A DNA stretch of 64,000 nucleotides from Rheinheimera sp. A13L. Its GTDB lineage: Bacteria > Pseudomonadota > Gammaproteobacteria > Enterobacterales > Alteromonadaceae. Positions within the stretch are counted from its first letter, which is position 1, and each line of letters begins with the position of its first letter. Both the position numbers and the translations under genes were made by a program. A model generated the notes under the pieces. That model ran no database searches. It had not been told where the DNA came from and saw nothing but the letters and a program-made list of their open reading frames with translations. The stretch is from assembly GCF_000217935.1 (NCBI RefSeq), contig NZ_AFHI01000010.1, positions 1 through 64,000 of the forward strand, read 5' to 3'. Below, piece by piece: positions 988-47,870 of this stretch.

Positions 988-3384
988 ATGAACAAGCTTT
1001 TGCTTAGCTTTGCTATTGCCAGTGCGTTAGGTTTAGCCGGTTGTGGTGGCGAATCACTGGACGAAATTAAAGAAGATACTCAAACAGGTGGTGAGGTTCA
1101 AATCCCTTTATCACGTGTAGTCTATGACCCAGCCAACGGTGTGTTATCACCACCTAACGATTTATTATTACAAGGCACCACTGATGGTACTTTGTTTATG
1201 CCGGGCGAAAAAGATGCAGCAGGCGCACATCTTGCTGCTCCTAACTATGCAGACCCTTCAACGGCCTTAGGCGCGTTAGATGGCTGGTCAACACAAAACC
1301 CATTTACCATTGCACTGAGCTTTACCTCTGGTGTCAGCTTAGATGCAGCCAGTGTGCAGCAGCCTGGTTCAGTTTACTTAGTGGAAACCCTGATGGGCGA
1401 CCCGGCATCACCAGATGCAGATTGTCGTGCTGTACCTCGGGGCGCTGCTTGTAAAGCTGTTGGCAGTCTGACCTTTGGTGTTGATTATGTGACCCGTGCC
1501 AGCGGCAACAGCGTTGCTGTTATCCCGTTAAAGCCATTAAAACCTGCGACCACTTATATTCTGGTGTTCACTGATGCGTTAAAAGACAGTGAAGGCCGTT
1601 CTGTTGCACCTTCCAGCAGTTATGAGTTGGTCAAGCAGGACATCAATACTAAGCCATTAGGCACAGCTGCTCAGTTGGCTTTACAAGGCGTCATTAACAG
1701 TTTTGAAAATGCAGTCTCTGCACAGTCGATTAACAAAGCCGGCATTATCTACACTGCTGCTATCACTACCCAGTCTACAGCTCCGGTATTTGCCACTATT
1801 AAACAGTTAATGGCACCAAGTCCGTTAAATAACAACACTCCTCCTTCAGTAGCTCTTGCTGATACTGGTGCTGTGGTTTCGGATTTATTGTTCCCGGGAC
1901 AAACTGTAGCGGATAGTCTGGCTGATCCTCGTTTTATTTTTAAACTGGCTAAGTTATACAGCGGTACTATTAACCTGCCGTATTATTTGGGGGCAGCAAC
2001 TGCAGAAAATCCAATGGCTCCTTTAAGTACCCGCTGGATGGCCCGTTGTGACTCAGGCGCAATTATTGCTTCATTAACAGATGCACAAAAAACAGCCTTA
2101 GAAGGCAGTATTACTGATCCGGCTCAGGCGGGGAATGATGCCTTCTGTAATGCCGCTTCAAATGGCGCTTTACGCGATTTTGGTCTGGATAAACAACGTC
2201 ACCTGACCAAGTTTAACGTGATCCCCAAAGTAAACAGCACTCAAACTTTAGCAGTGCAGGTCACAGTACCTGATGAGGTTCGCGGTGCCGCTTTAGGTTT
2301 GGTGAAACCAGCAGCAGGCTGGCCTGTGGTGATGTTACAACATGGTATTACTTCGAAAAAAGAAGATATGCTTGCCATCACCGGTGCTTTATCTGCCCGC
2401 GGTTTTGCCACTATTGCGATTGACCATCCGTTACATGGCAGCCGTGGTTTTGGTCCATTAAACGCTAGTAATGGTAATGCAACTGTCTATATGAACCTGT
2501 CGAACCTGTTGGTGACCCGTGACAATTTACGTCAGAGTATCGCTGATATGCTGGGCTTACGTTTAGGCATGAACTTTAACAACCAACCTGGCTTGTTAAA
2601 TACTCAGGACGTCCAGTTCTTAGGTCATTCTTTGGGTGCAATCTCTGGTACTGCTATGGTGGCTTTGGCCAACAGCACAACAGGCAGTGCTCAGTTGGAT
2701 GCTTTGTATAACATTCGCTCAGCTACCTTAGCTATGCCTGGTGGTGCTGTGGCTAACTTCCTGTTGGAGTCAGCTTCTTTTGGTCCTACCATTAAAGCCA
2801 GCGTATTGTTAGGTGCTGGTGGTGCCACTGCTCAGGGTTACATTGACTTTGCCACCAACAATGCCTGTGGTGCAGGTCAGAGTGCCCCTTATGCGGCGTG
2901 TTTTAATGACTTTGCTCAGGCGCTTGCCGTATCTAATCCAGCGGCACTGGCAACATTAAACGCTTCGTTCTCGTCTTTTGCTTTTGCAGCTCAGACAGTA
3001 ACAGATGCTGGCGATCCAAATAACTATGCTTCTATGCTGGTGGCTTCTGAAACCCCAACTTATATCATTGAAGTGGTAGGCAACGGTTCGGATCAGTTAC
3101 CAGACCAGGTGATCCCAAATCGCTCTGCTGCTATGCCTCTGGCCGGCACTGAGCCTCTGGCTGCTTTATTAGGTGCTTCAGCTTTAAGTAACGTGGCTGG
3201 TACTTATCCAGTGACGGGCACAGCCTTAAGCCGCTTTATTGCGGGTAACCACAGCTCTATCCTGAGCCCTGAGGGCAGTGCTGCAGCGACAGCTGAAATG
3301 CAAGGCCAAAGCGTAAGCTTCTTTATGGGTCGTGGTGCAGGTGTTGTGGTCACCAACGGTGCTGTAATGGCTCCAGCTAACTAA
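988..3384 (+). CDS. VolA/Pla-1/cef-type extracellular lipase lipoprotein
   Basis: Predicted surface lipoprotein lipase of 798 residues. The N-terminus is a lipoprotein signal peptide with lipobox LAGC followed by glycine and acidic residues (no Asp at +2, so outer-membrane sorting is likely). The N-terminal half resembles the bacterial virulence-factor lipase N-terminal domain (Ig-like, VVYDPANGVLSPPND). The C-terminal half is an alpha/beta hydrolase with an oxyanion region (VVMLQHG) and nucleophile elbow GHSLG, Ser548; the histidine near the C-terminus (AGNHSSIL) is a plausible catalytic base. Known relatives are VolA lysophospholipase of Vibrio and Pla-1 of Aeromonas. A GGGGAGA-like ribosome site precedes the ATG. 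Monocistronic, with its own terminator. Confidence 0.85.
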   Translation: MNKLLLSFAIASALGLAGCGGESLDEIKEDTQTGGEVQIPLSRVVYDPANGVLSPPNDLLLQGTTDGTLFMPGEKDAAGAHLAAPNYADPSTALGALDGWSTQNPFTIALSFTSGVSLDAASVQQPGSVYLVETLMGDPASPDADCRAVPRGAACKAVGSLTFGVDYVTRASGNSVAVIPLKPLKPATTYILVFTDALKDSEGRSVAPSSSYELVKQDINTKPLGTAAQLALQGVINSFENAVSAQSINKAGIIYTAAITTQSTAPVFATIKQLMAPSPLNNNTPPSVALADTGAVVSDLLFPGQTVADSLADPRFIFKLAKLYSGTINLPYYLGAATAENPMAPLSTRWMARCDSGAIIASLTDAQKTALEGSITDPAQAGNDAFCNAASNGALRDFGLDKQRHLTKFNVIPKVNSTQTLAVQVTVPDEVRGAALGLVKPAAGWPVVMLQHGITSKKEDMLAITGALSARGFATIAIDHPLHGSRGFGPLNASNGNATVYMNLSNLLVTRDNLRQSIADMLGLRLGMNFNNQPGLLNTQDVQFLGHSLGAISGTAMVALANSTTGSAQLDALYNIRSATLAMPGGAVANFLLESASFGPTIKASVLLGAGGATAQGYIDFATNNACGAGQSAPYAACFNDFAQALAVSNPAALATLNASFSSFAFAAQTVTDAGDPNNYASMLVASETPTYIIEVVGNGSDQLPDQVIPNRSAAMPLAGTEPLAALLGASALSNVAGTYPVTGTALSRFIAGNHSSILSPEGSAAATAEMQGQSVSFFMGRGAGVVVTNGAVMAPAN

Positions 3385-3401
3385 TAGCTCAACCTCTGTA
3401 A

Positions 3402-3428
3402 AGCCCGGCTCTGATGCCGGGCTTTTTT
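3402..3428 (+). terminator. Intrinsic terminator of the lipase gene
   Basis: Stem AGCCCGGC/GCCGGGCT with a short loop and a run of six T. The T-run passes directly into the family A repeat at 3429. Confidence 0.85.
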
Positions 3429-3625
3429 ATGTCCAAGGATGGACGGTATGTCGCAACTGTCGGGAACATTGTTGTGACGATGTCCAAGGATGGACGGTAT
3501 GTCGCAACTGTCGGGGTGATAACGGTCTTTCGAAATGCCAACAGTTTGGCATTTCGCCGTTATCACGCCTTCGCCTCTGGCGCAGGCCGGAAGTTTGTTG
3601 TGACGATGTCCAAGGATGGCACTGC
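3429..3625 (+). repeat. Family A structured repeat, copy 1
   Basis: Begins right after the terminator T-run. Contains two tandem units 51 bp apart (starting 3429 and 3480), each opening with ATGTCCAAGGATGGAC, a short hairpin presenting GGA in its loop, then GTCGCAAC, which can pair (one G-U) with GTTGTGAC at 3471-3478. Next comes a long hairpin at 3516-3566 (arms GTGATAACGG / CCGTTATCAC with an inner CGAAATGCCAA stem), then a small CGCC-TCT-GGCG hairpin and CCGGAAG. A third ATGTCCAAGGATGG occurs at 3606. Short open frames crossing it on both strands follow the repeat and are not credible genes. The 3626-3732 remainder is the sohB leader. Confidence 0.85.
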
Positions 3626-4725: not shown

Positions 4726-5376
4726 ATGCAAGCGGAATTTTGGCACAATTGCTGGCAGAATCAACGTATAGGTTTTCATCAAAGTGAAATCCATCCACTG
4801 CTGCCTGTGCTGTTTTCGCAGTTAAATCGGGACAGTTCCAGCGCTATTTTTGCGCCTTTGTGTGGTAAAAGTCTTGACCTGTGGTGGTTGGCACAACATG
4901 GCAAAGTGACTGGGGCTGAGCTGTCAGAGCTGGCTTGTCAGCAGTTTTATCAGCAACAGGGACAAGAGTTTTCTGCTTCTCCATACAACGAATTTCAGCA
5001 CTTTAGTCATCCGGCTGTTGATATCTGGCAAGGTGACTTTTTCGCCTTAAAGCCAGAGCAGTTGGGTTATATAGGGTTGATTTATGACAGAGCAGCTCTT
5101 ATCGCTTTGCCTGAGCAGATGCGTAAAGACTATGTGCAGCAGTTAAAGCAACTCTGTCAGGGGCCTGTCTCTTTAGTGTTATTGAGTCTGGAGTATCAAC
5201 AAGATGAAATGTCTGGTCCGCCATTTTCGGTGACAGAGCAGGAGGTCAGAAGCTTATTTGATTTTGCATCCTCCATACAGCTGGTGGCGGTTCGTAATCT
5301 GACAGGACGACCTTTTGCTCAGCGTCAGTTTAAGGTCAGCCAACTGCTGGAAAAGGCATTTTTAATCCAGTGGTAA
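4726..5376 (+). CDS. tpm: Thiopurine S-methyltransferase
   Basis: SAM-dependent methyltransferase of 216 residues, usual length for bacterial TPMT. The N-terminal FWHNCWQNQRIGFHQSEIHPLL and the SAM-binding region FAPLCGKSLDLWWLA are family hallmarks (the long stretch is residues 5-26). In gammaproteobacteria the enzyme is linked to methylation and detoxification of tellurite/selenite and thiopurines. It starts 3 bp after sohB and is probably translated from the same message. No terminator of its own is obvious: the convergent symporter terminator at 5581-5610 works in both directions and would end this transcript after it crosses repeat copy 2. Confidence 0.9.
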   Translation: MQAEFWHNCWQNQRIGFHQSEIHPLLPVLFSQLNRDSSSAIFAPLCGKSLDLWWLAQHGKVTGAELSELACQQFYQQQGQEFSASPYNEFQHFSHPAVDIWQGDFFALKPEQLGYIGLIYDRAALIALPEQMRKDYVQQLKQLCQGPVSLVLLSLEYQQDEMSGPPFSVTEQEVRSLFDFASSIQLVAVRNLTGRPFAQRQFKVSQLLEKAFLIQW

Positions 5377-5400: not shown

Positions 5401-5580
5401 AATCGTAGCAACAAGCATCCGGCCTGCGCCAGAGGCGAAGGCGTGATAACGGCGAAATGCCAAACTGTTGGCATTTCGAAAGACCGCTATCACCCCGACA
5501 GTTGCGACATACCGTCCATCCATGGACATCGTCGCAACAATGTTCCCTACAGTTGCGACATACCGTCCATCCATGGACAT
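5401..5580 (-). repeat. Family A structured repeat, copy 2
   Basis: Same modular element as at 3429, read on the minus strand so that it follows the symporter terminator. From 5580 downward: ATGTCCATGGATGGAC twice (51 bp apart), stem GTCGCAAC/GTTGCGAC (perfect Watson-Crick here), the long hairpin at 5493-5443 (GTGATAGCGG / CCGTTATCAC, one G-U pair), then the CGCCTCTGGCG hairpin and CCGGATG. The far end degenerates near 5401. Confidence 0.85.
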
Positions 5581-5610
5581 AAAAAAACGCCGCAATTTGC
5601 GGCGTTTTTT
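5581..5610. terminator. Bidirectional terminator between tpm and the symporter gene
   Basis: A7, stem ACGCCGCAA/TTGCGGCGT, T6. It can end the symporter transcript on the minus strand and tpm on the plus strand. Its minus-strand T-run abuts repeat copy 2. Confidence 0.85.
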
Positions 5611-5624
5611 CTTAGAGGCGAAAC

Positions 5625-6932
5625 TTAAGAGTTTCTTCCTGCATCCGGGTTGTTAAAACACTCTGCATCAAATTGATTTTCGCTTTTGGCGATAAGACAG
5701 GACACCATAGCATCCCCTGTCACATTCACTGCTGTGCGGGTCATATCCAGTAAACGGTCCACGCCAATAATCAAGGCAATACCCTCCACTGGTAAGCCCA
5801 CTTGCTGCAATACCATGGCCAGCATAATTAAACCTACACCAGGCACACCTGCAGTGCCGACAGAAGCTAAAGTGGCGGTCAGAATCACCATCAGGTAGTC
5901 CATAGTGGTTAAATCAACCTGAAACACCTGAGCGATAAATACAGTCGCCACACCTTGCATAATGGCTGTGCCATCCATATTGATGGTTGCACCTAAAGGG
6001 ATAGTGAATGAGGCAATACTGTTGCTGACCCCCAGTTTTTTGGTGGTTGTTTCCATATTGACCGGAATGGTGGCATTACTGCTGGACATGCTAAAACCAA
6101 ACAAAGCGGCATCTTTCATTTTGCGGAAAAACATCAGAGGGTTTAAGCGACCTAAAACAGAGATAAATAAGCCATAAACAACAAAACCATGGAAAAACAA
6201 TACAAAAAGCACAGTACTAAAATACCAGCCCAGGCTTTCCAAATTTTTCAAATCTAAAGTGGTAAATAGTTTGGCCATCAGGAAAAACACACCATAAGGT
6301 GCCAGAGCCATCATAAAACCAACCAGTTTCATCACCACTTCGTTTAAGTCATTAAACAAAGCCCGCACTCTGGAACCCGCTTCTCCCGTTAAAGCAACGG
6401 CTAAACCAAAAAGAACTGAAAACACGATAATCTGCAGCATTTCCCCTTTCGCCATGGCTTCCACCGGATTACTTGGGAACATATTGATAAAAACCTGAGT
6501 AATAGAGGGGGCTTGTTGCACACTAAATTGTGCATCTGCAGTCATTTGTACTCCTGTTCCGGGGGAAACCAGAAGTGCAAAAAAGATAGCCAGAGCTATA
6601 GCAACAGCTGTGGTCAGAATATACAAACCAACAGATTTACCGCCAAGGCGACCCAAGGTGCTGCCATCACTCAATGAACTGGTACCGCAGACCAGAGAGA
6701 CAAAAACCAGCGGCACGACCAGCATTTTTAAGCTGGCGACAAAAATTTGTCCACCTGCGTGAAAAATACCGTCGACAAAAAAGGCCCGCAAGCCAAGCTC
6801 TGCGCCAAACAAACTTAAAGTTCGTTCTGCTTCACCTGCTAACAGGAATTTAAAAAAAGCACCGACCAGTATGCCCAGCGCCATACCAATCAAAATACGT
6901 GGGGTTAGACCTAGTTTCTTTTTTGCAGTCAT
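5625..6932 (-). CDS. Dicarboxylate/amino acid:cation symporter (SLC1/DAACS family)
   Basis: Inner-membrane secondary transporter, about 435 residues from the ATG at 6932. It carries the family signatures: a serine-rich re-entrant loop SSSNATIPVNMET, and the substrate/Na-binding motif INMDGTA, with multiple hydrophobic helices. Members import glutamate/aspartate or C4-dicarboxylates with Na+ or H+; the substrate cannot be read from sequence. The frame extends to an ATG at 7022, but the additional 30 residues are polar and atypical, whereas MTAKKKLGLTPRILIGM matches family N-termini. Monocistronic. Confidence 0.85.
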   Translation of the reverse strand: MTAKKKLGLTPRILIGMALGILVGAFFKFLLAGEAERTLSLFGAELGLRAFFVDGIFHAGGQIFVASLKMLVVPLVFVSLVCGTSSLSDGSTLGRLGGKSVGLYILTTAVAIALAIFFALLVSPGTGVQMTADAQFSVQQAPSITQVFINMFPSNPVEAMAKGEMLQIIVFSVLFGLAVALTGEAGSRVRALFNDLNEVVMKLVGFMMALAPYGVFFLMAKLFTTLDLKNLESLGWYFSTVLFVLFFHGFVVYGLFISVLGRLNPLMFFRKMKDAALFGFSMSSSNATIPVNMETTTKKLGVSNSIASFTIPLGATINMDGTAIMQGVATVFIAQVFQVDLTTMDYLMVILTATLASVGTAGVPGVGLIMLAMVLQQVGLPVEGIALIIGVDRLLDMTRTAVNVTGDAMVSCLIAKSENQFDAECFNNPDAGRNS

Positions 6933-7100
6933 TTTTATTTTATTATCAGCCCGGAAAATGCCGCTTAGCCTAACAGTTTGTGAGTCAAAAGAAAAACCGC
7001 AACTGACGGAATTATTTTGCATCTGGACTTAGCCCACTGCATAAGTTTCGACTAAGCTAGAATAATTACAATAAGTTAGCGCATCCAATGGAGAGTCCAG

Positions 7101-10788: not shown

Positions 10789-10860
10789 TTTTGCTTTATT
10801 CCTTCATTTTTTGGGAAGGGGCTCTGCTTTTATTATTATTGCGGCCGTTGCTTCATTTTA

Positions 10861-11150
10861 TCCCTGCGTACTTAAAGCTACAGCGTTGTTGACTGCGCTA
10901 CTCGCCCCAGTCACATAGGACCTCTATGCTCCTGGGGTCTCGCTCGCTTGTCGCCTAGCTGTCACTTCAATTACTTTGGGTAATATCCCTGCGTACTTAA
11001 AGCTACAGCGTTGTTGACTGCGCTACTCGCCCCAGTCACATAGGACCTCTATGCTCCTGGGGTCTCGCTCGCTTGTTGCCTAGCTGTCACTTCAATTACT
11101 TTGGGTTATATCCCTGCGTACTCAAAGCCACAACTTTGTTGACCACCTTA
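10861..11150 (+). repeat. Family B repeat, 2.3 tandem copies, 125-bp period
   Basis: Units start at 10861, 10986 and 11111 (TCCCTGCGTACT), exactly 125 bp apart. The first two are almost identical; the third decays after about 40 bp. Each full unit contains a hairpin CCCCAG-TCA-CATAG ... CTATG-CTC-CTGGGG with a symmetric internal loop. They fill most of the 554-bp gap between divergent astB and topA; the remaining 11151-11342 is the topA leader, without an obvious gene. Confidence 0.85.
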
Positions 11151-29454: not shown

Positions 29455-29580
29455 TAGCTTGCTTGCAAACAAGTGAAAGCTGAATGCATTTGTGCCTGTT
29501 TCCAAAGTCCTATGCAGCTGTCTGACAAAGTGTAGGTAGTGTGTAAAGTCAAAGCCGGATGACTCCGGAGCCAGATTTAA

Positions 29581-29607
29581 AAAAAACCACCTGCGGGTGG
29601 TTTTTTT
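29581..29607 (+). terminator. Terminator after bamC
   Basis: A6, stem CCACC/GGTGG extended by A-T pairs, loop TGCG, T7. It ends 127 bp after bamC and abuts repeat copy 3. Confidence 0.85.
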
Positions 29608-29780
29608 ATGTCCATGGAAGGACGGTATGTCGAAAATGCAGGAGCATATTTTCGACGATGTCCATGGAAGGACGGTATGTCGAAAATGCAGGGTGATAGC
29701 GGTCTTTCGAAATGCCAACAGTTTTGCATTTCGCCGCTATCACGCCTTCGCCTCTGGCGAAGACCGGAAGCTTGTTGCAA
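29608..29780 (+). repeat. Family A structured repeat, copy 3
   Basis: Same modules as at 3429: two tandem units 51 bp apart starting ATGTCCATGGAAGGAC, with stems GTCGAAAATGC pairing with GCATATTTTCGAC (29644-29655 region), then the long hairpin at 29693-29743 (GTGATAGCGG / CCGCTATCAC), then CGCCTCTGGCG and CCGGAAGCTTGTTGC. The stem sequences differ from copies 1 and 2 by paired changes. Confidence 0.85.
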
Positions 29781-29969
29781 CTATCAGCAGCCTTCTTTGA
29801 ACAGAGTCTGACAGCAAGCATCAAAAACTACTGTATCTGCGCCAAGCGGTGCAGGATGAATAAAATAACGCTATGATTAGGCTCAATTTAATTGCCTTCA
29901 AAAGCAAATAAAAGGCAGCAGATACTGAGTCAGCTGTATGAGCTGAGCATTTTTGTCGGCATCAGCTCT

Positions 29970-40511: not shown

Positions 40512-40968
40512 ACACCAAGCGACAGAACGGCTGGATGAATTTTTGAGCTTTTACAATAACCTGAGCCAGAACAACTTAGACTCACTGCATCACTTGTATG
40601 CGGCTAACGTTGAGTTTATCGACCCCGTTCATCATATGCTGGGGCTGGAGCAGTTACAGCAGTATTTTTCTCACGCTTATGCCAGATTAAGCAGTTGTCA
40701 TTTTGTCGCCACCTCAAAAATAGCGAATGAAAGTCAGGGCTGCCTGAGCTGGATCATGACTTTTACCCATGATGCTATTGGCAATGGTAAAGCGATTTCT
40801 GTGCATGGCTGCTCAGTCGTGCACTGGGACAGCGAAGGCAAAATTGCGTACCACAGAGACTATTACGACTTAAATGAAATGGTACTGGAACATATTCCGC
40901 TGCTGGGTTGGGTCACAAAAAAAATTAAGCAAAAAATGGCGAATAACGCTTCAACCCAAACAACGTGA
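40504..40968 (+). CDS. SnoaL-like/NTF2-fold protein
   Basis: 154 residues with the cone-shaped NTF2 fold pattern (NLDSLHHLYAANVEFIDPVHHMLGLEQLQQYF is residues 21-52, typical of the SnoaL-like family). Family members near photolyase-cfa clusters are common; function unknown. Overlaps phr by 8 bp. Its last codons lie in family B repeat DNA. Confidence 0.8.
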   Translation: MNEHQATERLDEFLSFYNNLSQNNLDSLHHLYAANVEFIDPVHHMLGLEQLQQYFSHAYARLSSCHFVATSKIANESQGCLSWIMTFTHDAIGNGKAISVHGCSVVHWDSEGKIAYHRDYYDLNEMVLEHIPLLGWVTKKIKQKMANNASTQTT

Positions 40969-41195
40969 AGTTGCAGGGAGGCGACAAGTAATCGAGGCCC
41001 CTGGAGCATAGAACCACTATGTGACCGGGGCCAGTGACCGCAGTCAAGGAAGCTGCGGCTTTACGTAAGAACGGCCTTTACCCAAACAACGTGAAGTTGC
41101 AGGGAGGCGACAAGCAATCGAGGTCCTGGGAGCATAGGCCACTATGTGACCGGGGCGAGTAAGCGCAGTCAACAATGCTGCGGCTTTAAGTAGGA
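40954..41195 (-). repeat. Family B repeat, two copies in inverted orientation
   Basis: Units begin at 40954 and 41080 (ACCCAAACAACGTGAAG), 126 bp apart, and are reverse complements of the 10.9-kb units: hairpin CTGGAGCATAG ... CTATGTGACCGGGG. The first copy overlaps the last codons of the SnoaL-like gene; together they separate it from the FAD oxidoreductase gene by 235 bp in an otherwise tightly packed cluster. Confidence 0.8.
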
Positions 41196-41203
41196 AGGGT
41201 AAA

Positions 41204-42457
41204 ATGAAAATTGCAGTAGTAGGTGGCGGTATCTCCGGCATGATCAGCTGGTATTTGTTGCAGCGCCAGCATGATGTAACCTTATTTGAAGCTGGCTCTT
41301 ATCTGGGGGGCCATACCGCCACAGTGGATGTGCAGGTCGAAGGGAAAGACTATGCCATAGACACAGGTTTTATTGTGTTTAACAACTGGACTTATCCGCT
41401 GTTTAATAAGTTTTTAGCCGAACTTAAGGTGGAATCACAGCCCACCCAAATGAGTTTTTCGGTGAAAAAAGCCGATACGGGTCTGGAATACAATGGTCAT
41501 ACGCTGTCGACTTTATTTGCCCAGCGTCGCAATCTGTTTCGCCCTTCATTTTGGCGTATGCTGCTCGATATTGTCCGGTTTAACAAATTGGGTAAAGCAC
41601 TGCTGGAGCAAAACCATCCTGATCTGGACTTACTGATTGACGAGTTTCTGGCCAAACACAACTTAGGCAAAGAACTTCGGAATGACTATTTATTGCCGAT
41701 GGGGGCCGCCATCTGGTCGTCAGGCCTTGCCGATATGCCGTCATTTCCACTGCGGTTTTTCCTGAATTTCTTCAAAAACCATGGTTTGCTGAATGTGGCT
41801 GACAGGCCACAGTGGTCAGTGATTAAAGGCGGATCGCGCCAATATGTGCGTGCTTTGCTTAATCGCCTTAATCCAGAGCAGGTACAGCTTAATAGTCCGG
41901 TAAAATCAGTCACACGACATGCAGATGGCGTTACGCTGGAGTTTACTGATGGACGCACAGAGTCTTTTGACCAGGTGGTCTTTGCGTGCCATAGCGATCA
42001 GGCTCTGGCGCTGTTAAAAGACCCGACAGAGGCAGAGCGTCAGGTATTAGGCGGTATTGCATATCAAAAGAACGAAGTGATTCTGCATACAGACCAACGC
42101 ATTTTACCCAAACGCAAAGCGGCCTGGGCTGCCTGGAATTACCATCTGACTGGTGACGCTTCCAGTCATGCCACTTTAAGTTACAACATGAATATTCTGC
42201 AGGGCATTGAAGCCCCAGTGACTTTTGTGGTGACGCTGAACCATAGTCAGGCCATAGATCAGAGTAAAATTTTAAAACGTTTTCAGTACGATCATCCGGT
42301 CTTTAACCACTGCACTATTGCAGCACAGCAACGCCGTGCTGAAATTAATGGTGTCAATAATAGCTGGTTTTGTGGAGCTTATTGGTATAACGGTTTCCAT
42401 GAAGATGGGGTGCGAAGTGCAGTGGATATAGCCCATGCCATGGGAGTGGAGTTTTGA
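41204..42457 (+). CDS. FAD-dependent amine-oxidase-type oxidoreductase
   Basis: 417 residues. The dinucleotide-binding motif VVGGGISGMISWYLL starts at residue 5 and GGHTATVDV follows, as in the amine-oxidase/desaturase superfamily. In Cfa-linked clusters this enzyme type is proposed to oxidise or desaturate fatty-acyl chains; the substrate here is unproven. It is translationally coupled to DUF1365 (4-bp overlap) and hence to the Cfa-like gene. Confidence 0.85.
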   Translation: MKIAVVGGGISGMISWYLLQRQHDVTLFEAGSYLGGHTATVDVQVEGKDYAIDTGFIVFNNWTYPLFNKFLAELKVESQPTQMSFSVKKADTGLEYNGHTLSTLFAQRRNLFRPSFWRMLLDIVRFNKLGKALLEQNHPDLDLLIDEFLAKHNLGKELRNDYLLPMGAAIWSSGLADMPSFPLRFFLNFFKNHGLLNVADRPQWSVIKGGSRQYVRALLNRLNPEQVQLNSPVKSVTRHADGVTLEFTDGRTESFDQVVFACHSDQALALLKDPTEAERQVLGGIAYQKNEVILHTDQRILPKRKAAWAAWNYHLTGDASSHATLSYNMNILQGIEAPVTFVVTLNHSQAIDQSKILKRFQYDHPVFNHCTIAAQQRRAEINGVNNSWFCGAYWYNGFHEDGVRSAVDIAHAMGVEF

Positions 42458-44515: not shown

Positions 44516-46915
44516 ATGACGACCGTGACCACTTCACTGCCCCAAACTGATATCAGTGTTCTTCACGCTCAACTCCAGCTGTTACAGCAAGAAAATGCCA
44601 GACTAAGCTTAATTAATCAGTTTGCCATTGATCTGCATGAGTTGACGGGCGCGGATGACATTCTTAATTATGCTGCAAAACATGTCGTGGCAGGCTTAGG
44701 CTTTGTCGATTGTGCTATTTTTATTCTGGCACCGGATCGACAAACACTGGTGCGTAAAGCAGGCACAGGTACCCGCGATTTACCTTCCCATTTAGGCATA
44801 GCTGAATTAAAAATTGGTCATGGACTGGTGGGTTATGCCGCCAGCACTAAAGCGTCTGTGCTGGTGTCTGATACCCGGAATGATCCTCATTATCTGGCTG
44901 ATTTAGTGCCCAGCTTGTCGGAGCTGGTTGTGCCTATTCTGGATGGTGATGAGGTGTTGGGGGTGATTGACTGTGAACACTCTCATATTAATTATTTTAC
45001 CCTTGAACATCAGCAAATTCTTGAAGTGGTGGCCTCTATTCTGGCCAGTAAACTTCGAAAGGCGCAGATGCTGGATACTCTCGAGTCGTCAGTCAGTAAA
45101 CTTGAATATGCAGAGCGCTTACAAAAAGCCTTATACGAAATAGCCTCCTTCTCTTATTTTGCCAACGATTTCTCCGGTTTCTACAAAAGAATGCATCAAA
45201 TCGTGAATTCACTGATTTATGCGCCAAACTTTTTTATTGCTTTGTACGATGATGAAGCCGAGTTGCTACAATTTCCATACTTCGCCGATACCGAAGATGA
45301 TTTACATCCCGATCAGGTCTTTGGCAAAGATGTACTGGAACACAGCCTGACGGGCCATGTGTTTCGCTCCAATAAGCCGTTATTGATCCTGCGGGAAGAG
45401 ATAGCGGCCTTTGAGCAAGAGTATGATGTTAACTCATATGGTTCTGAGCCTGAAGCCTGGTTAGGTGTGCCTTTTCAGTCCAGTGAAACAGTGCGTGGTG
45501 TAGTGGTGGTGCAAAGTTATGTCGCCAATATTCAATACACAGAACGTGATCTGGAGCTGATGATTTTTGTCTCCCAGCATATCTCCAACGCGCTGGAGCG
45601 GGTATTCTCCGAAAAACGTTTACAGCATCAGGCATTACATGACGCTTTAACGGCTTTACCCAACCGCAGTCTGTTGATGGACAGAATTGGTCAGGCGTTT
45701 AAACGAATGCAACGTTTTCCAGCCAACCATCTGGCGGTGATGTACCTGGATTTAGACCGTTTTAAAACCGTCAATGACACTTTAGGTCATCAGGTCGGCG
45801 ATGATTTTCTTATTCAGGTTGGACGGGTGCTGAAGCAATGTATGCGTCAGACCGATACACTGGCACGTTTAGGCGGCGATGAATTTGCCGTGGTACTGGA
45901 GGATGTGGCAGGGCTCTCTGATGTCACAGAGGTAGCCCAACGTATTATTCAGGCGCTGCAGCAACCTTTATTGGTCGGGGAGCATACGCTGCTAACCTCT
46001 TGCAGTATTGGCATAGCGCTGGCTAATTCAGGGGATCAGCTGCAGTCAGCGGACGAGCTTATTCGCCGCGCTGATATCGCTATGTATCAGGCCAAACAGG
46101 ATGGCCGTGGTGTCTACCGTATTTATTCAGCAGATATGCAGGCGCAGGAAAGTCAGGAGTTCAAATTAGGGCTGGAAATTAAAGCGGCTTTGGCGCAGCA
46201 GCATTTTATGCTGCATTATCAGCCTATTATCTGCCTGGAGACAGACGACACTCTGGGCTTTGAGGCGTTAATTCGCTGGACTCACCAGACTCAGGGCGTG
46301 ATCACGCCGGATCAATTTATTCCTTTTGCCGAAAAAAACGGCTTGATAGGGCTGATCGACCATTATGTATTGTCGCAAAGTATCGAACAAATCCGTCTGT
46401 GGCGACAAAATTACGGCACGCCTTTTTATGTCAGCGTTAATGTATCAGGTCTGGCATTCTCAGAGCCTGATTTTGCCACTGCAGTGATCCAGAAACTGGC
46501 GGACGCTGATGTTCCAGCCCGTTATCTGGCGATAGAAATTACAGAGCGGGCTTTGATTGAAAATATCGATCAGGCGCGTTTGTGCTTAAAACAGCTGCGT
46601 CAGCATGGGGTGAAAGTACTGCTGGATGATTTTGGCACCGGGTACTCCAGTTTAAGTTATCTGAATGAATTTAAACTGGACGTGCTAAAAATTGACCGCT
46701 CTTTTATTGCCAATATGAAACCCCGGATCCAGGATAACCCTGTGGTTAATACTGTGATTGCTTTAGCTAAAACTTTGAATTTAAAAGTAGTGGCAGAAGG
46801 AGTGGAAACCAGTTTACAGCGGCAGTTATTAAAAGAACTGGGTTGTGATGCCGGGCAGGGCTATTGGTTTGCTAAGGCTTTGCCTGCAGCCGATGCAATC
46901 AAATGGCTACGTTAA
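44516..46915 (+). CDS. GAF-GAF-GGDEF-EAL cyclic-di-GMP protein
   Basis: 799 residues, soluble. Two GAF sensor domains (about 35-185 and 205-365), GGDEF domain (375-535) with intact GGDEF at 453-457 and the RxxD inhibitory site at 444-447, and an EAL domain (545-795) with EAL at 583-585, NVSG, ITERALIE, DDFGTGYSSL, KIDRSFI and AEGVET all present. Both synthesis and hydrolysis of c-di-GMP are therefore possible, with product inhibition. Follows the lipid cluster at 65 bp. A family B repeat follows the stop. Confidence 0.92.
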   Translation: MTTVTTSLPQTDISVLHAQLQLLQQENARLSLINQFAIDLHELTGADDILNYAAKHVVAGLGFVDCAIFILAPDRQTLVRKAGTGTRDLPSHLGIAELKIGHGLVGYAASTKASVLVSDTRNDPHYLADLVPSLSELVVPILDGDEVLGVIDCEHSHINYFTLEHQQILEVVASILASKLRKAQMLDTLESSVSKLEYAERLQKALYEIASFSYFANDFSGFYKRMHQIVNSLIYAPNFFIALYDDEAELLQFPYFADTEDDLHPDQVFGKDVLEHSLTGHVFRSNKPLLILREEIAAFEQEYDVNSYGSEPEAWLGVPFQSSETVRGVVVVQSYVANIQYTERDLELMIFVSQHISNALERVFSEKRLQHQALHDALTALPNRSLLMDRIGQAFKRMQRFPANHLAVMYLDLDRFKTVNDTLGHQVGDDFLIQVGRVLKQCMRQTDTLARLGGDEFAVVLEDVAGLSDVTEVAQRIIQALQQPLLVGEHTLLTSCSIGIALANSGDQLQSADELIRRADIAMYQAKQDGRGVYRIYSADMQAQESQEFKLGLEIKAALAQQHFMLHYQPIICLETDDTLGFEALIRWTHQTQGVITPDQFIPFAEKNGLIGLIDHYVLSQSIEQIRLWRQNYGTPFYVSVNVSGLAFSEPDFATAVIQKLADADVPARYLAIEITERALIENIDQARLCLKQLRQHGVKVLLDDFGTGYSSLSYLNEFKLDVLKIDRSFIANMKPRIQDNPVVNTVIALAKTLNLKVVAEGVETSLQRQLLKELGCDAGQGYWFAKALPAADAIKWLR

Positions 46916-46918
46916 ACA

Positions 46919-47035
46919 CTTCGTACTTAAAGCTGCAGCGTTGTTGGCTACGCTACTCGCCCCAGTCACATAGGACAACTATGCTCCTGGGGTCTCGCTC
47001 ACTTGCCGCCTAGCTGCAACTTCAATTACTTTGTG
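46919..47035 (+). repeat. Family B repeat, single copy
   Basis: Unit in the same orientation as at 10.9 kb, from TTCGTACTTAAAGC to AACTTCAATTACTTTG, with the hairpin CCCCAG-TCA-CATAG / CTATG-CTC-CTGGGG. It begins 4 bp after the stop of the GGDEF-EAL gene and its end carries the stop codon of the minus-strand CvfB-like gene (47022-47024). Confidence 0.85.
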
Positions 47036-47870
47036 TTTGGTTTAGGCGGATGGCCTCTGCTTCAATAACGATTTGGCCAGCTTTATATAAAGCACCTATG
47101 GCTTGCTTAAACATCTTTTTACTGACACCAAACTCACCGTAAATTTGCTCCGGCGTGCTTTTATCCGATATCGGCAAGCTGCCGCCTTTGTGCTTTAGGC
47201 GCTCTAAAATCACATCAGTAAAAGCCTGAGCTTTTTCATAACCAGGTTTGTCCAGCATCAGATCAATACGGAAGTCGTCACGCATTTTCTGCACATAAGC
47301 TGTGCCTTTGTAGCCGATACGCAGGGGTTTAAATACCTGATTTTTATACAATAAGCCCCAGTGCTGATGATCCACTACTACTTTGTAGCCAAGATCAGTC
47401 TGAGACGCGACATAAAACTGTACTTCATCGCCTGGTTGATAATCCGGCGTGTCTTTGCCTATGTATCTGTCCAGCTTGGCTGAGGCGACAATGCGGTTAC
47501 TTTTATCAACATAACAGTACACCAGATAATATTTATCCAGTTGCATCGGAATTTGTTGTTCGCTAAAAGGCACCAGTAAGTCTTTTTTCAGACCCCAGTT
47601 TAAAAAGGCACCTACTTTGGTGATAGCTACAGCTTTGAGCTGTGCAACCTGACCGACCATCACATAAGGTTTTTCTGTAGTGGCAATCAGCTGATCTTCA
47701 GAGTCCAGATACAGCAGTACTTCAAGCACTGTACCAATCTCTGTGCCAGCAGGCACATAACGTTTAGGTAATAAAATATCACCCCAGCTTAAGCCATCTA
47801 AGTAAACGCCAAATTCGACCTGCTTTTTGACGGCCAGTTTGTTCAGTTTGCCTAAAGCGAGTTGGGTCAT
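47022..47870 (-). CDS. CvfB-like S1/OB-fold RNA-binding protein
   Basis: 282 residues from ATG 47870 (CGGAG seven bases upstream). Successive S1-like/OB domains (VEFGVYLDGLSWGDILLP, GAFLNWGLKKDLLVPFSEQ) and a C-terminal winged-helix (GEFGVSKKMFKQAIGALYKAG) match the CvfB family, known in Staphylococcus as a virulence-related RNA-binding regulator. The frame extends upstream to 48017 but overlaps yaeQ and lacks homology there. The last codons and stop come from a family B repeat. Confidence 0.85.
   Translation of the reverse strand: MTQLALGKLNKLAVKKQVEFGVYLDGLSWGDILLPKRYVPAGTEIGTVLEVLLYLDSEDQLIATTEKPYVMVGQVAQLKAVAITKVGAFLNWGLKKDLLVPFSEQQIPMQLDKYYLVYCYVDKSNRIVASAKLDRYIGKDTPDYQPGDEVQFYVASQTDLGYKVVVDHQHWGLLYKNQVFKPLRIGYKGTAYVQKMRDDFRIDLMLDKPGYEKAQAFTDVILERLKHKGGSLPISDKSTPEQIYGEFGVSKKMFKQAIGALYKAGQIVIEAEAIRLNQTQSN

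Follow-up and report, generated by a model that had tools for sequence, protein, structure and literature searches.

Terminator-abutting twin-hairpin repeats in Rheinheimera and other gamma-proteobacteria as candidate CsrA-binding RNA elements

The window analysed here, a stretch of 64,000 nucleotides from Rheinheimera sp. A13L (contig NZ_AFHI01000010.1), contains three copies of a hairpin repeat, each adjoining an intrinsic terminator, and all three lie where the original prediction had placed them (Table 1). The shared modules of the prediction were likewise found in the sequence, both the GTGATA hairpin of 51 nt and the CGCCTCTGGCG module, and so were the stem variants that it listed. Each unit of the repeat comprises two hairpins, H1, with a short stem and a loop of the form ANGGAN or AGGAN, and S, with a longer stem and GGA usually in the loop. 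H1 reads ATGTCC-A(N)GGA(N)-GGAC and is followed by the linker GGTAT and by stem S (GTCGCAAC...GTTGCGAC and variants), whose apical loop is UGU-NGGGA-ACA or UGC-AGGA-GCA; RNAfold on four isolated short units returned essentially this structure. Tandem units are spaced at 49-54 nt. The 51-bp period claimed earlier holds for the basic unit of copies 1 and 2, but copy 3 has a unit of 50 nt. Within the aligned 51-nt unit the two GGA motifs stand 26 nt apart, with 25 nt more to that of the next unit. The last unit may carry a long insert made of the GTGATA hairpin and the CGCCTCTGGCG hairpin, and in all three copies this insert (H3 and H4) replaces the S loop of the last unit. H4 is GCCTTCGCCTCTGGCG(A/C)AG(G/A)C; CGCCTCTGGCG is the core of this longer hairpin, which reads GCCTTCGCCTCTGGCG(A/C)AGGC in most copies. 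GGA is absent from both strands of H3 and H4 in the window. Copy 1 together with its terminator (3396-3618) has a folding z-score of -7.3 against 200 dinucleotide shuffles, none of which folded as low. The short unit of copy 3 has the same sequence in L001.

Table 1. Positions of the three repeat copies and their adjoining terminators in the window.
Feature	Position	Strand	Details
Intrinsic terminator of upstream gene	3400..3428	+	Gene 988-3384; terminator scan 3400-3425: 10 pairs, 7 G-C; T-run adjoins array
Copy 1, short unit	3429..3479	+	H1 loop AAGGAT; S GTCGCAAC/GTTGTGAC, loop CGGGA; 83.7 bits (model R1)
Copy 1, long unit	3480..3605	+	H1 3480-3495; S arms 3501-3508 and 3597-3604 around H3 3516-3566 and H4 3567-3587
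Copy 1, trailing partial H1 (ATGTCCAAGGATGG)	3606..3619	+	
Bidirectional terminator beside copy 2	5581..5610	-	Between convergent genes 4726-5376 (+) and 5625-7022 (-)
Copy 2, short unit	5530..5580	-	H1 loop ATGGAT; S loop AGGGA; 88.3 bits (R1)
Copy 2, long unit	5405..5529	-	H3 5443-5493; H4 5422-5442
Terminator hairpin and T-run (AACCACCTGCGGGTGGTTTTTTT) 5' of copy 3	29580..29607	+	By eye; absent from the list of the simple scan
Copy 3, short unit	29608..29657	+	H1 loop ATGGAA; S GTCGAAAA/TTTTCGAC, loop AGGA; 80.1 bits (R1)
Copy 3, long unit	29658..29781	+	H3 29693-29743; H4 29744-29764; S arms unpaired (GTCGAAAA/GTTGCAAC)

A second repeat family is also present in the window. Its tandem units of 125 nt (TATCCCTGCGTACTTAAAGC...), 87-98% alike, occupy 10859-11143 and 46914-47038, with an inverted partner at 41162-41204; at 40954-41199 lie kindred repeats with a spacing of 125-126 nt.

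The repeat described in Table 1 is widely dispersed. A GGA-bearing pattern finds 23 copies of H1 in the window genome and none with the reversed control. A covariance model, R1, built from 12 units and applied at E up to 0.01, gave 28 matches there, which by our own grouping fall into 16 sites, two of them weak (27.0 and 21.4 bits). The search of Rheinheimera with a covariance model of the copies' family, as had been proposed, yielded matches in all 22 genus genomes searched; within the family R1 matched in 57 of 147 genomes and 25 of 52 genera, and at the level of the class a model from a wider unit set, R2, matched at E up to 1e-4 in 57 of 369 genomes and 46 of 272 sampled genera, these spread counts being lower bounds since stricter filters apply in searches of more than 40 genomes. 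R1 includes GGA and its matches are therefore biased on the loops, so a loop-blind pattern with both loops left open (ATGTCC N6 GGACGGTATGNCG) was run over species genomes and 113 stretches were used. The 159 pattern matches listed, which include tandem and orthologous units, come from Rheinheimera, Bowmanella, Lacimicrobium, Aliiglaciecola, Sedimenticola, Thiolapillus, Thiohalomonas, Methylophaga, Stenotrophobium, Dokdonella and others. A single match in a Gemmatimonadaceae record (L254), with the loop CCAAAT, looks like chance. Carriage by plasmids or phages was considered and rejected: one 108-nt query had no match in either the plasmid or the phage collection, and of nine viral contigs that carry the pattern R2 confirms three.

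The original prediction had described the stem changes among the three copies as compensatory. This is correct for the short unit of copy 3, but in the long unit of that copy the pairing of S is lost (GTCGAAAA versus GTTGCAAC), and the long unit of copy 2 has a single mismatch in the S stem (GTTGCTAC). Three copies on their own are thin evidence for covariation; 87 distinct rows, drawn from the window genome and its relatives, make it solid. These rows derive from R1 matches in 66 of 115 loci, which gave an alignment of 98 rows with long and partial units included. Pairing holds in 96.3% of the 1187 cells of the distinct rows, as against 75.7% in shuffles, a count that leans towards structure because the alignment was fitted to it and that leaves in the kinship among rows. 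Changes on both sides occur in 14 of the 15 pairs, double-change cells number 230 (55.7 in shuffles), the covariation score is 0.461 (0.142 in shuffles), and none of 500 shuffles reaches any of the five covariation values. Sliding the partner lowers the paired cells to 27-52%; given these slides and the raw list of units, the covariation does not rest on the structure-fitted alignment alone. Among the H1 stems seen are GTCC/GGAC, GTAC/GTAC, GTTC/GAAC, GCCC/GGGC and CTAC/GTAG, with CCGCC/GGCGG in inverted units. H1 closes with a C-G pair in 83 of the 86 rows with letters and with U-G in the other 3, while its remaining three pairs vary in both partners. Abundant homologues carry paired changes of this kind; the first outcome named as refuting the prediction did not occur, and the proposed selection on structure is supported. 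Whether this structure is RNA or single-stranded DNA had been left undecided; the loops and the nearly constant C-G closing pair point to RNA.

The attachment to intrinsic terminators proposed for the three copies also extends to the wider set. For this purpose 102 first units were retained from the 159 listed matches, after exclusion of those with a unit upstream, near the end of a stretch, or repeated. In 78 of the 102 the eight bases 5' of the unit include five or more T, as against 58 of 1920 control ATGNCC sites in the same DNA, the other 24 first units having fewer than five; a T-run together with a hairpin stem of at least 5 pairs precedes 69 of the 102 and only 6 of the 1920 controls. 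The orientation is biased: among 69 arrays, some of them orthologous and a few being clusters in which the model had overlooked the unit upstream, the T-run is 5' in 51 and 3' in 7, and an A-run is 3' in 2. A same-strand open frame of at least 80 codons ends no more than 250 nt upstream in 80 of 93 cases. In the window genome 15 sites were inspected (all 16 minus one weak site); at 13 of these at least five T stand directly 5' of the first unit, and at 11 a same-strand frame of at least 100 codons ends 40-164 nt upstream, the remaining sites having a short unconvincing frame (three) or lying at a contig end (one). Judged by eye, the upstream frames are presumably a dicarboxylate symporter, rpsI, an AmpE-like gene, three TonB receptors, an NhaC-like and an FtsH-like gene. 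Terminator stems vary from site to site; the terminators are part of the genes and not of the repeat. Promoter-like sites are about as frequent as expected in one scan (3 found, 3.7 expected) and number 3 against 1.6 in another.

An outer stem of at least 7 pairs formed by the flanks was seen in 3 of 12 tested units without a T-run (3.3% with shuffled partners) and in 1 of 39 with a T-run, 51 units being usable in all, and was rejected as a general feature on these counts. Palindrome-forming flanks do surround the units in L178, L202 and L231, and hairpins other than terminators may serve as landing sites in L202 and L178. By eye, the flanking palindrome of L202 resembles a GTAGGTCGGGCT (GTAG-type) REP.

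Comparison of single sites indicates how arrays may come and go. Of the 22 genus genomes, 21 yielded the gene that neighbours copy 2, one locus (L157) ending before the intergenic region. At the 20 readable loci an array is present by eye in four: that of the window genome lies on the minus strand, those of L158, L161 and L164 on the plus strand. Seven close relatives (L154, L155, L156, L159, L160, L162 and L163) show by eye a bidirectional terminator that is recognisably the same, with no array beside it, the neighbouring gene of L154 being 95% identical to that of the window; nine distant relatives have terminators of different sequence and, again, no array. Because arrays occur at this terminator in two orientations, at least two events must have taken place there, and at this one site compared an array gained at the terminator is the straightforward reading. 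No target duplication is apparent by eye at the copy 2 site. At the AmpE-like gene, the only site so measured, the first unit of four relatives is identical to that of the window genome at 50-51 of 51 positions, as compared with 77-92% for the upstream coding sequence and 80-95% for the last 40 nt before the array. Such identity fits purifying selection, and homogenisation between copies could account for it as an alternative. Unit number differs between species at apparently one site, and degenerate units occur in L158 and L164. L001 (contig C27) and a locus of genome G019 (L069), from two species, show apparently the same terminator followed by arrays with different stem variants, which looks like concerted change or replacement of the whole array. 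In L091, L095 and L098 the long module is an inverted unit, matched by R1 on the other strand, so that its GGA loops would face the opposite transcript. The TCC loops of these inverted modules are complementary to the GGA loops of sense units, and kissing-loop pairing between the two is conceivable.

The loops, on which the original prediction did not remark, are the most telling feature of the element. Among the 159 listed matches of the loop-blind pattern, H1 has the loop NNGGAN in 152; position 1 is A in 157, positions 3 to 5 are G, G and A in 155, 156 and 158, and the remaining positions vary (position 2: T 75, G 67, A 10, C 7; position 6: T 93, A 39, C 15, G 12). Restricting the matches listed to first units leaves this picture in place, with NNGGAN in 98 of 102 and A at position 1 in 100. 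Similarly, for S among the matches listed, an unpaired GGA is present in 116 of 139 distinct segments (45.3 in dinucleotide shuffles) and GGA lies in 99 of 130 apical loops, often as NGGGA or AGGA rather than AYGGAY. According to published work, the CsrA/RsmA site is an ANGGAN hexaloop in which A and GGA are contacted and N is variable, the SELEX consensus is RUACARGGAUGU, and stems mostly have four or fewer pairs (PMC7652899, PMC3791407). The element, with ANGGAN hexaloops or GGA loops on short stems, agrees with the published site, and some units contain GUACAGGAUGUAC (for example L056) or GGUACAUGGAUGUACC (L061). Since the loops are of the A-N-GGA-N kind with free N positions, and since the closing pair is nearly always C-G while the other H1 pairs covary, an RNA bound by CsrA/RsmA is indicated. 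On comparison with the published site, CsrA protein probably binds the units, and this is the step of the mechanism for which the inference is strong. A tblastn search with an E. coli CsrA query gave no match for csrA in the retrieved loci, which make up a small part of any genome.

The element was compared with described RNA families. An Rfam scan of the window at gathering score reports only a tRNA; no Rfam family matches the copies at that threshold, in keeping with the earlier statement that no named element with this layout was known. At 20 loci, scanned at E up to 5, tRNAs, a cspA-like stretch, one TwoAYGGAY just below cut-off and otherwise weak sub-cut-off matches were obtained, some of the last spanning a terminator and the first unit, and RF01731 did not match at the element. 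Our partial coverage of the literature on REP, terminator-linked repeats and CsrA/RsmA sites revealed no description of it.

TwoAYGGAY is the nearest described motif found, and it has already been proposed to bind CsrA (PMC4333381). It shares with the element paired neighbouring hairpins with loops of A-N-GGA-N type, occurrence in gamma-proteobacteria and several copies per genome. The two differ in that TwoAYGGAY (RF01731) possesses an outer stem and its stems are longer, whereas the element has a terminator upstream and often tandem units. Set beside AYGGAY, the H1 loops of the matches listed read NNGGAN in 152 of 159 but often have G at position 2. At E up to 0.001 the RF01731 model (43 bits) matched in none of the 22 genus genomes, 14 control genomes being likewise unmatched, while its search over the class did detect the TwoAYGGAY family. 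Identity with TwoAYGGAY was rejected, as RF01731 is unmatched at the element both in these genomes and at the 20 loci. Both models match in 11 of 369 class genomes. TwoAYGGAY lies side by side with the element in L128 (39.7 bits) and L342, and on one contig (C8 of G249) the two are about 70 nt apart on opposite strands; among 30 loci fetched for RF01731, R2 matches in only one, beside the RF01731 match and not on it. The element and TwoAYGGAY may therefore have a closer connection than these comparisons of models reveal.

The CsrB/CsrC and RsmX/Y/Z RNAs are sRNA genes with their own promoter and a 3' terminator (PMC11882849). They have repeated hairpins with GGA in the loop, as does the element, and serve as CsrA decoys. 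Unlike these genes, the element occurs as several arrays per genome after the terminators of other genes, and the terminator is 5' of the array. RF00018 (CsrB) has no match at gathering score in the 22 genus genomes, and the only match in the window genome (C45:7083-7323, 42.4 bits, cut-off 71) is not at an array; CsrB identity was rejected on these results. CsrB-like RNA below the Rfam cut-off is present in 21 of the 22 genus genomes, with one or two matches each, and the arrays would not be the sole sponge because this RNA lies elsewhere. By its sequence the element appears as sponge-like parts without CsrB/Rsm gene structure. What seems to be new is the dispersed, terminator-abutting and often tandem form of these predicted CsrA-type hairpins.

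Several other explanations were weighed. The units could belong to a selfish REP/BIME-type hairpin element acting as single-stranded DNA and spread by a hairpin-recognising tyrosine transposase, the loops being read as DNA with no role for CsrA. The units are indeed dispersed, tandem and partly inverted, an array appears to have been gained at a terminator, and the palindromic flanks of L178, L202 and L231, one of them reminiscent by eye of a GTAG-type REP, would suit such a history, which also predicts the inverted long modules that a pure read-through sponge does not. REP/BIME with RAYT resembles the element in its dispersed palindromic units, sometimes in both orientations; the element differs in having no GT(A/G)G head and no RAYT flanked by units among 30 loci. 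In our alignments A1, A2 and A3 no such head precedes the palindrome, and GGTAT, GGTAC or TTTTAT stands there instead. The linked RAYT/IS200-type gene that had been suggested was not found: scanning flanks of about 1.5 kb at 30 of the 37 PF01797 matches in the 22 genus genomes produced one weak match (15.3 bits, E 0.013), and a RAYT/IS200 origin was rejected on this result and on the presence of other repeats beside the RAYT-like gene of the window genome. That gene (L025:1289-2082, contig C64) codes for 197 aa and falls just under the PF01797 cut-off; the repeats on its two sides look like GTAG-type REP palindromes and are unlike the element. Moreover, conservation lies in the loops and the C-G closing pair, there is no GTAG foot, and the free N positions agree with the published CsrA contacts. 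We consider the REP/BIME-type explanation unlikely. Intrinsic terminators are also insertion targets of group IIC introns. Insertion beside DNA stem-loops (PMC10190682) is the point of likeness to these introns; an intron with maturase would need far more length than the element has, and the likeness is confined to the landing site.

The hairpins could instead back up the terminator or protect the 3' end, halting or stabilising read-through RNA, with CsrA optional and titration absent. Their sense orientation directly after T-runs and the frames upstream (at least 80 codons in 80 of 93; at least 100 codons 40-164 nt away at 11 of 15 window genome sites) fit such a role, but simple hairpins need neither ANGGAN loops nor a second GGA loop per unit, and we regard it as distinctly unlikely. 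That the loops, some of which read GGA, AGGA or even AGGAGG (L048), pair with the anti-Shine-Dalgarno of 16S rRNA as a ribosome-binding decoy and not with CsrA appears highly improbable: among the matches listed, T at position 2 is about as frequent as G, position 6 is G in 12 of 159, and the 5' A is present in 157 of 159, features that are poor for such pairing and right for CsrA. Neutral relics, ancient hairpin repeats held alike by gene conversion only, are favoured by the variation in unit number at apparently one site and by some degenerate units (L158, L164); however, compensatory changes in 14 of 15 pairs and near-fixed loops across many genera require selection, which makes this account very unlikely.

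The preferred reading, to which we give a probability of about one half, is that of a dispersed, terminator-targeted hairpin module that would bind CsrA in read-through RNA. The element would be a dispersed non-coding RNA element of tandem twin-hairpin units, in which the two GGA loops of a unit, about 25 nt apart, could fit both RNA sites of one CsrA/RsmA dimer. It would enter the genome directly 3' of intrinsic terminators, on the T-run side and in fixed orientation, plausibly through a hairpin-targeting mechanism, for and against which we see even chances, and its unit number would then grow or shrink. Read-through transcripts would carry the array and bind CsrA. As the GGA strand of the array is present only in RNA that has run past the terminator, the array could be a decoy dosed by read-through; the likeliest effect would be that CsrA is titrated, the array serving as a decoy or sponge in step with read-through from the upstream gene, with a local influence on the 3' end as the alternative effect. 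Several points speak against this reading: array RNA may be rare because the arrays lie behind terminators, H3 and H4 of the window contain no GGA, inverted long modules occur in some relatives, and 24 of the 102 first units have fewer than five T before them. What the analysis itself establishes is the layout, the covariation, the loop consensus, the junction with terminators, the difference in array presence at one site and the breadth of occurrence. While CsrA binding is the best-supported step, sponge function and mobility are weakly indicated, and transcription by read-through together with a sponge effect is put forward tentatively, as somewhat short of an even chance. It is a speculative and rather doubtful extension that class-wide, self-dispersing modules behind terminators turn read-through RNA into CsrA decoys, so that the leakage of many genes feeds global Csr control, with the terminator hairpin possibly being the DNA target.

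The relatives in many gamma-proteobacteria suggest an unrecognised and probably spreading reservoir of putative CsrA-binding sites. If CsrA binds the arrays, many gamma-proteobacterial Csr regulons would include a hidden sink of sites outside the CsrB/C genes, and this sink would be linked to how efficiently other genes terminate, among them in the window genome, by eye, rpsI, an ftsH-like gene and TonB receptors. Terminator-exact landing would add a new case of a mobile module that finds its target by an RNA stop signal.
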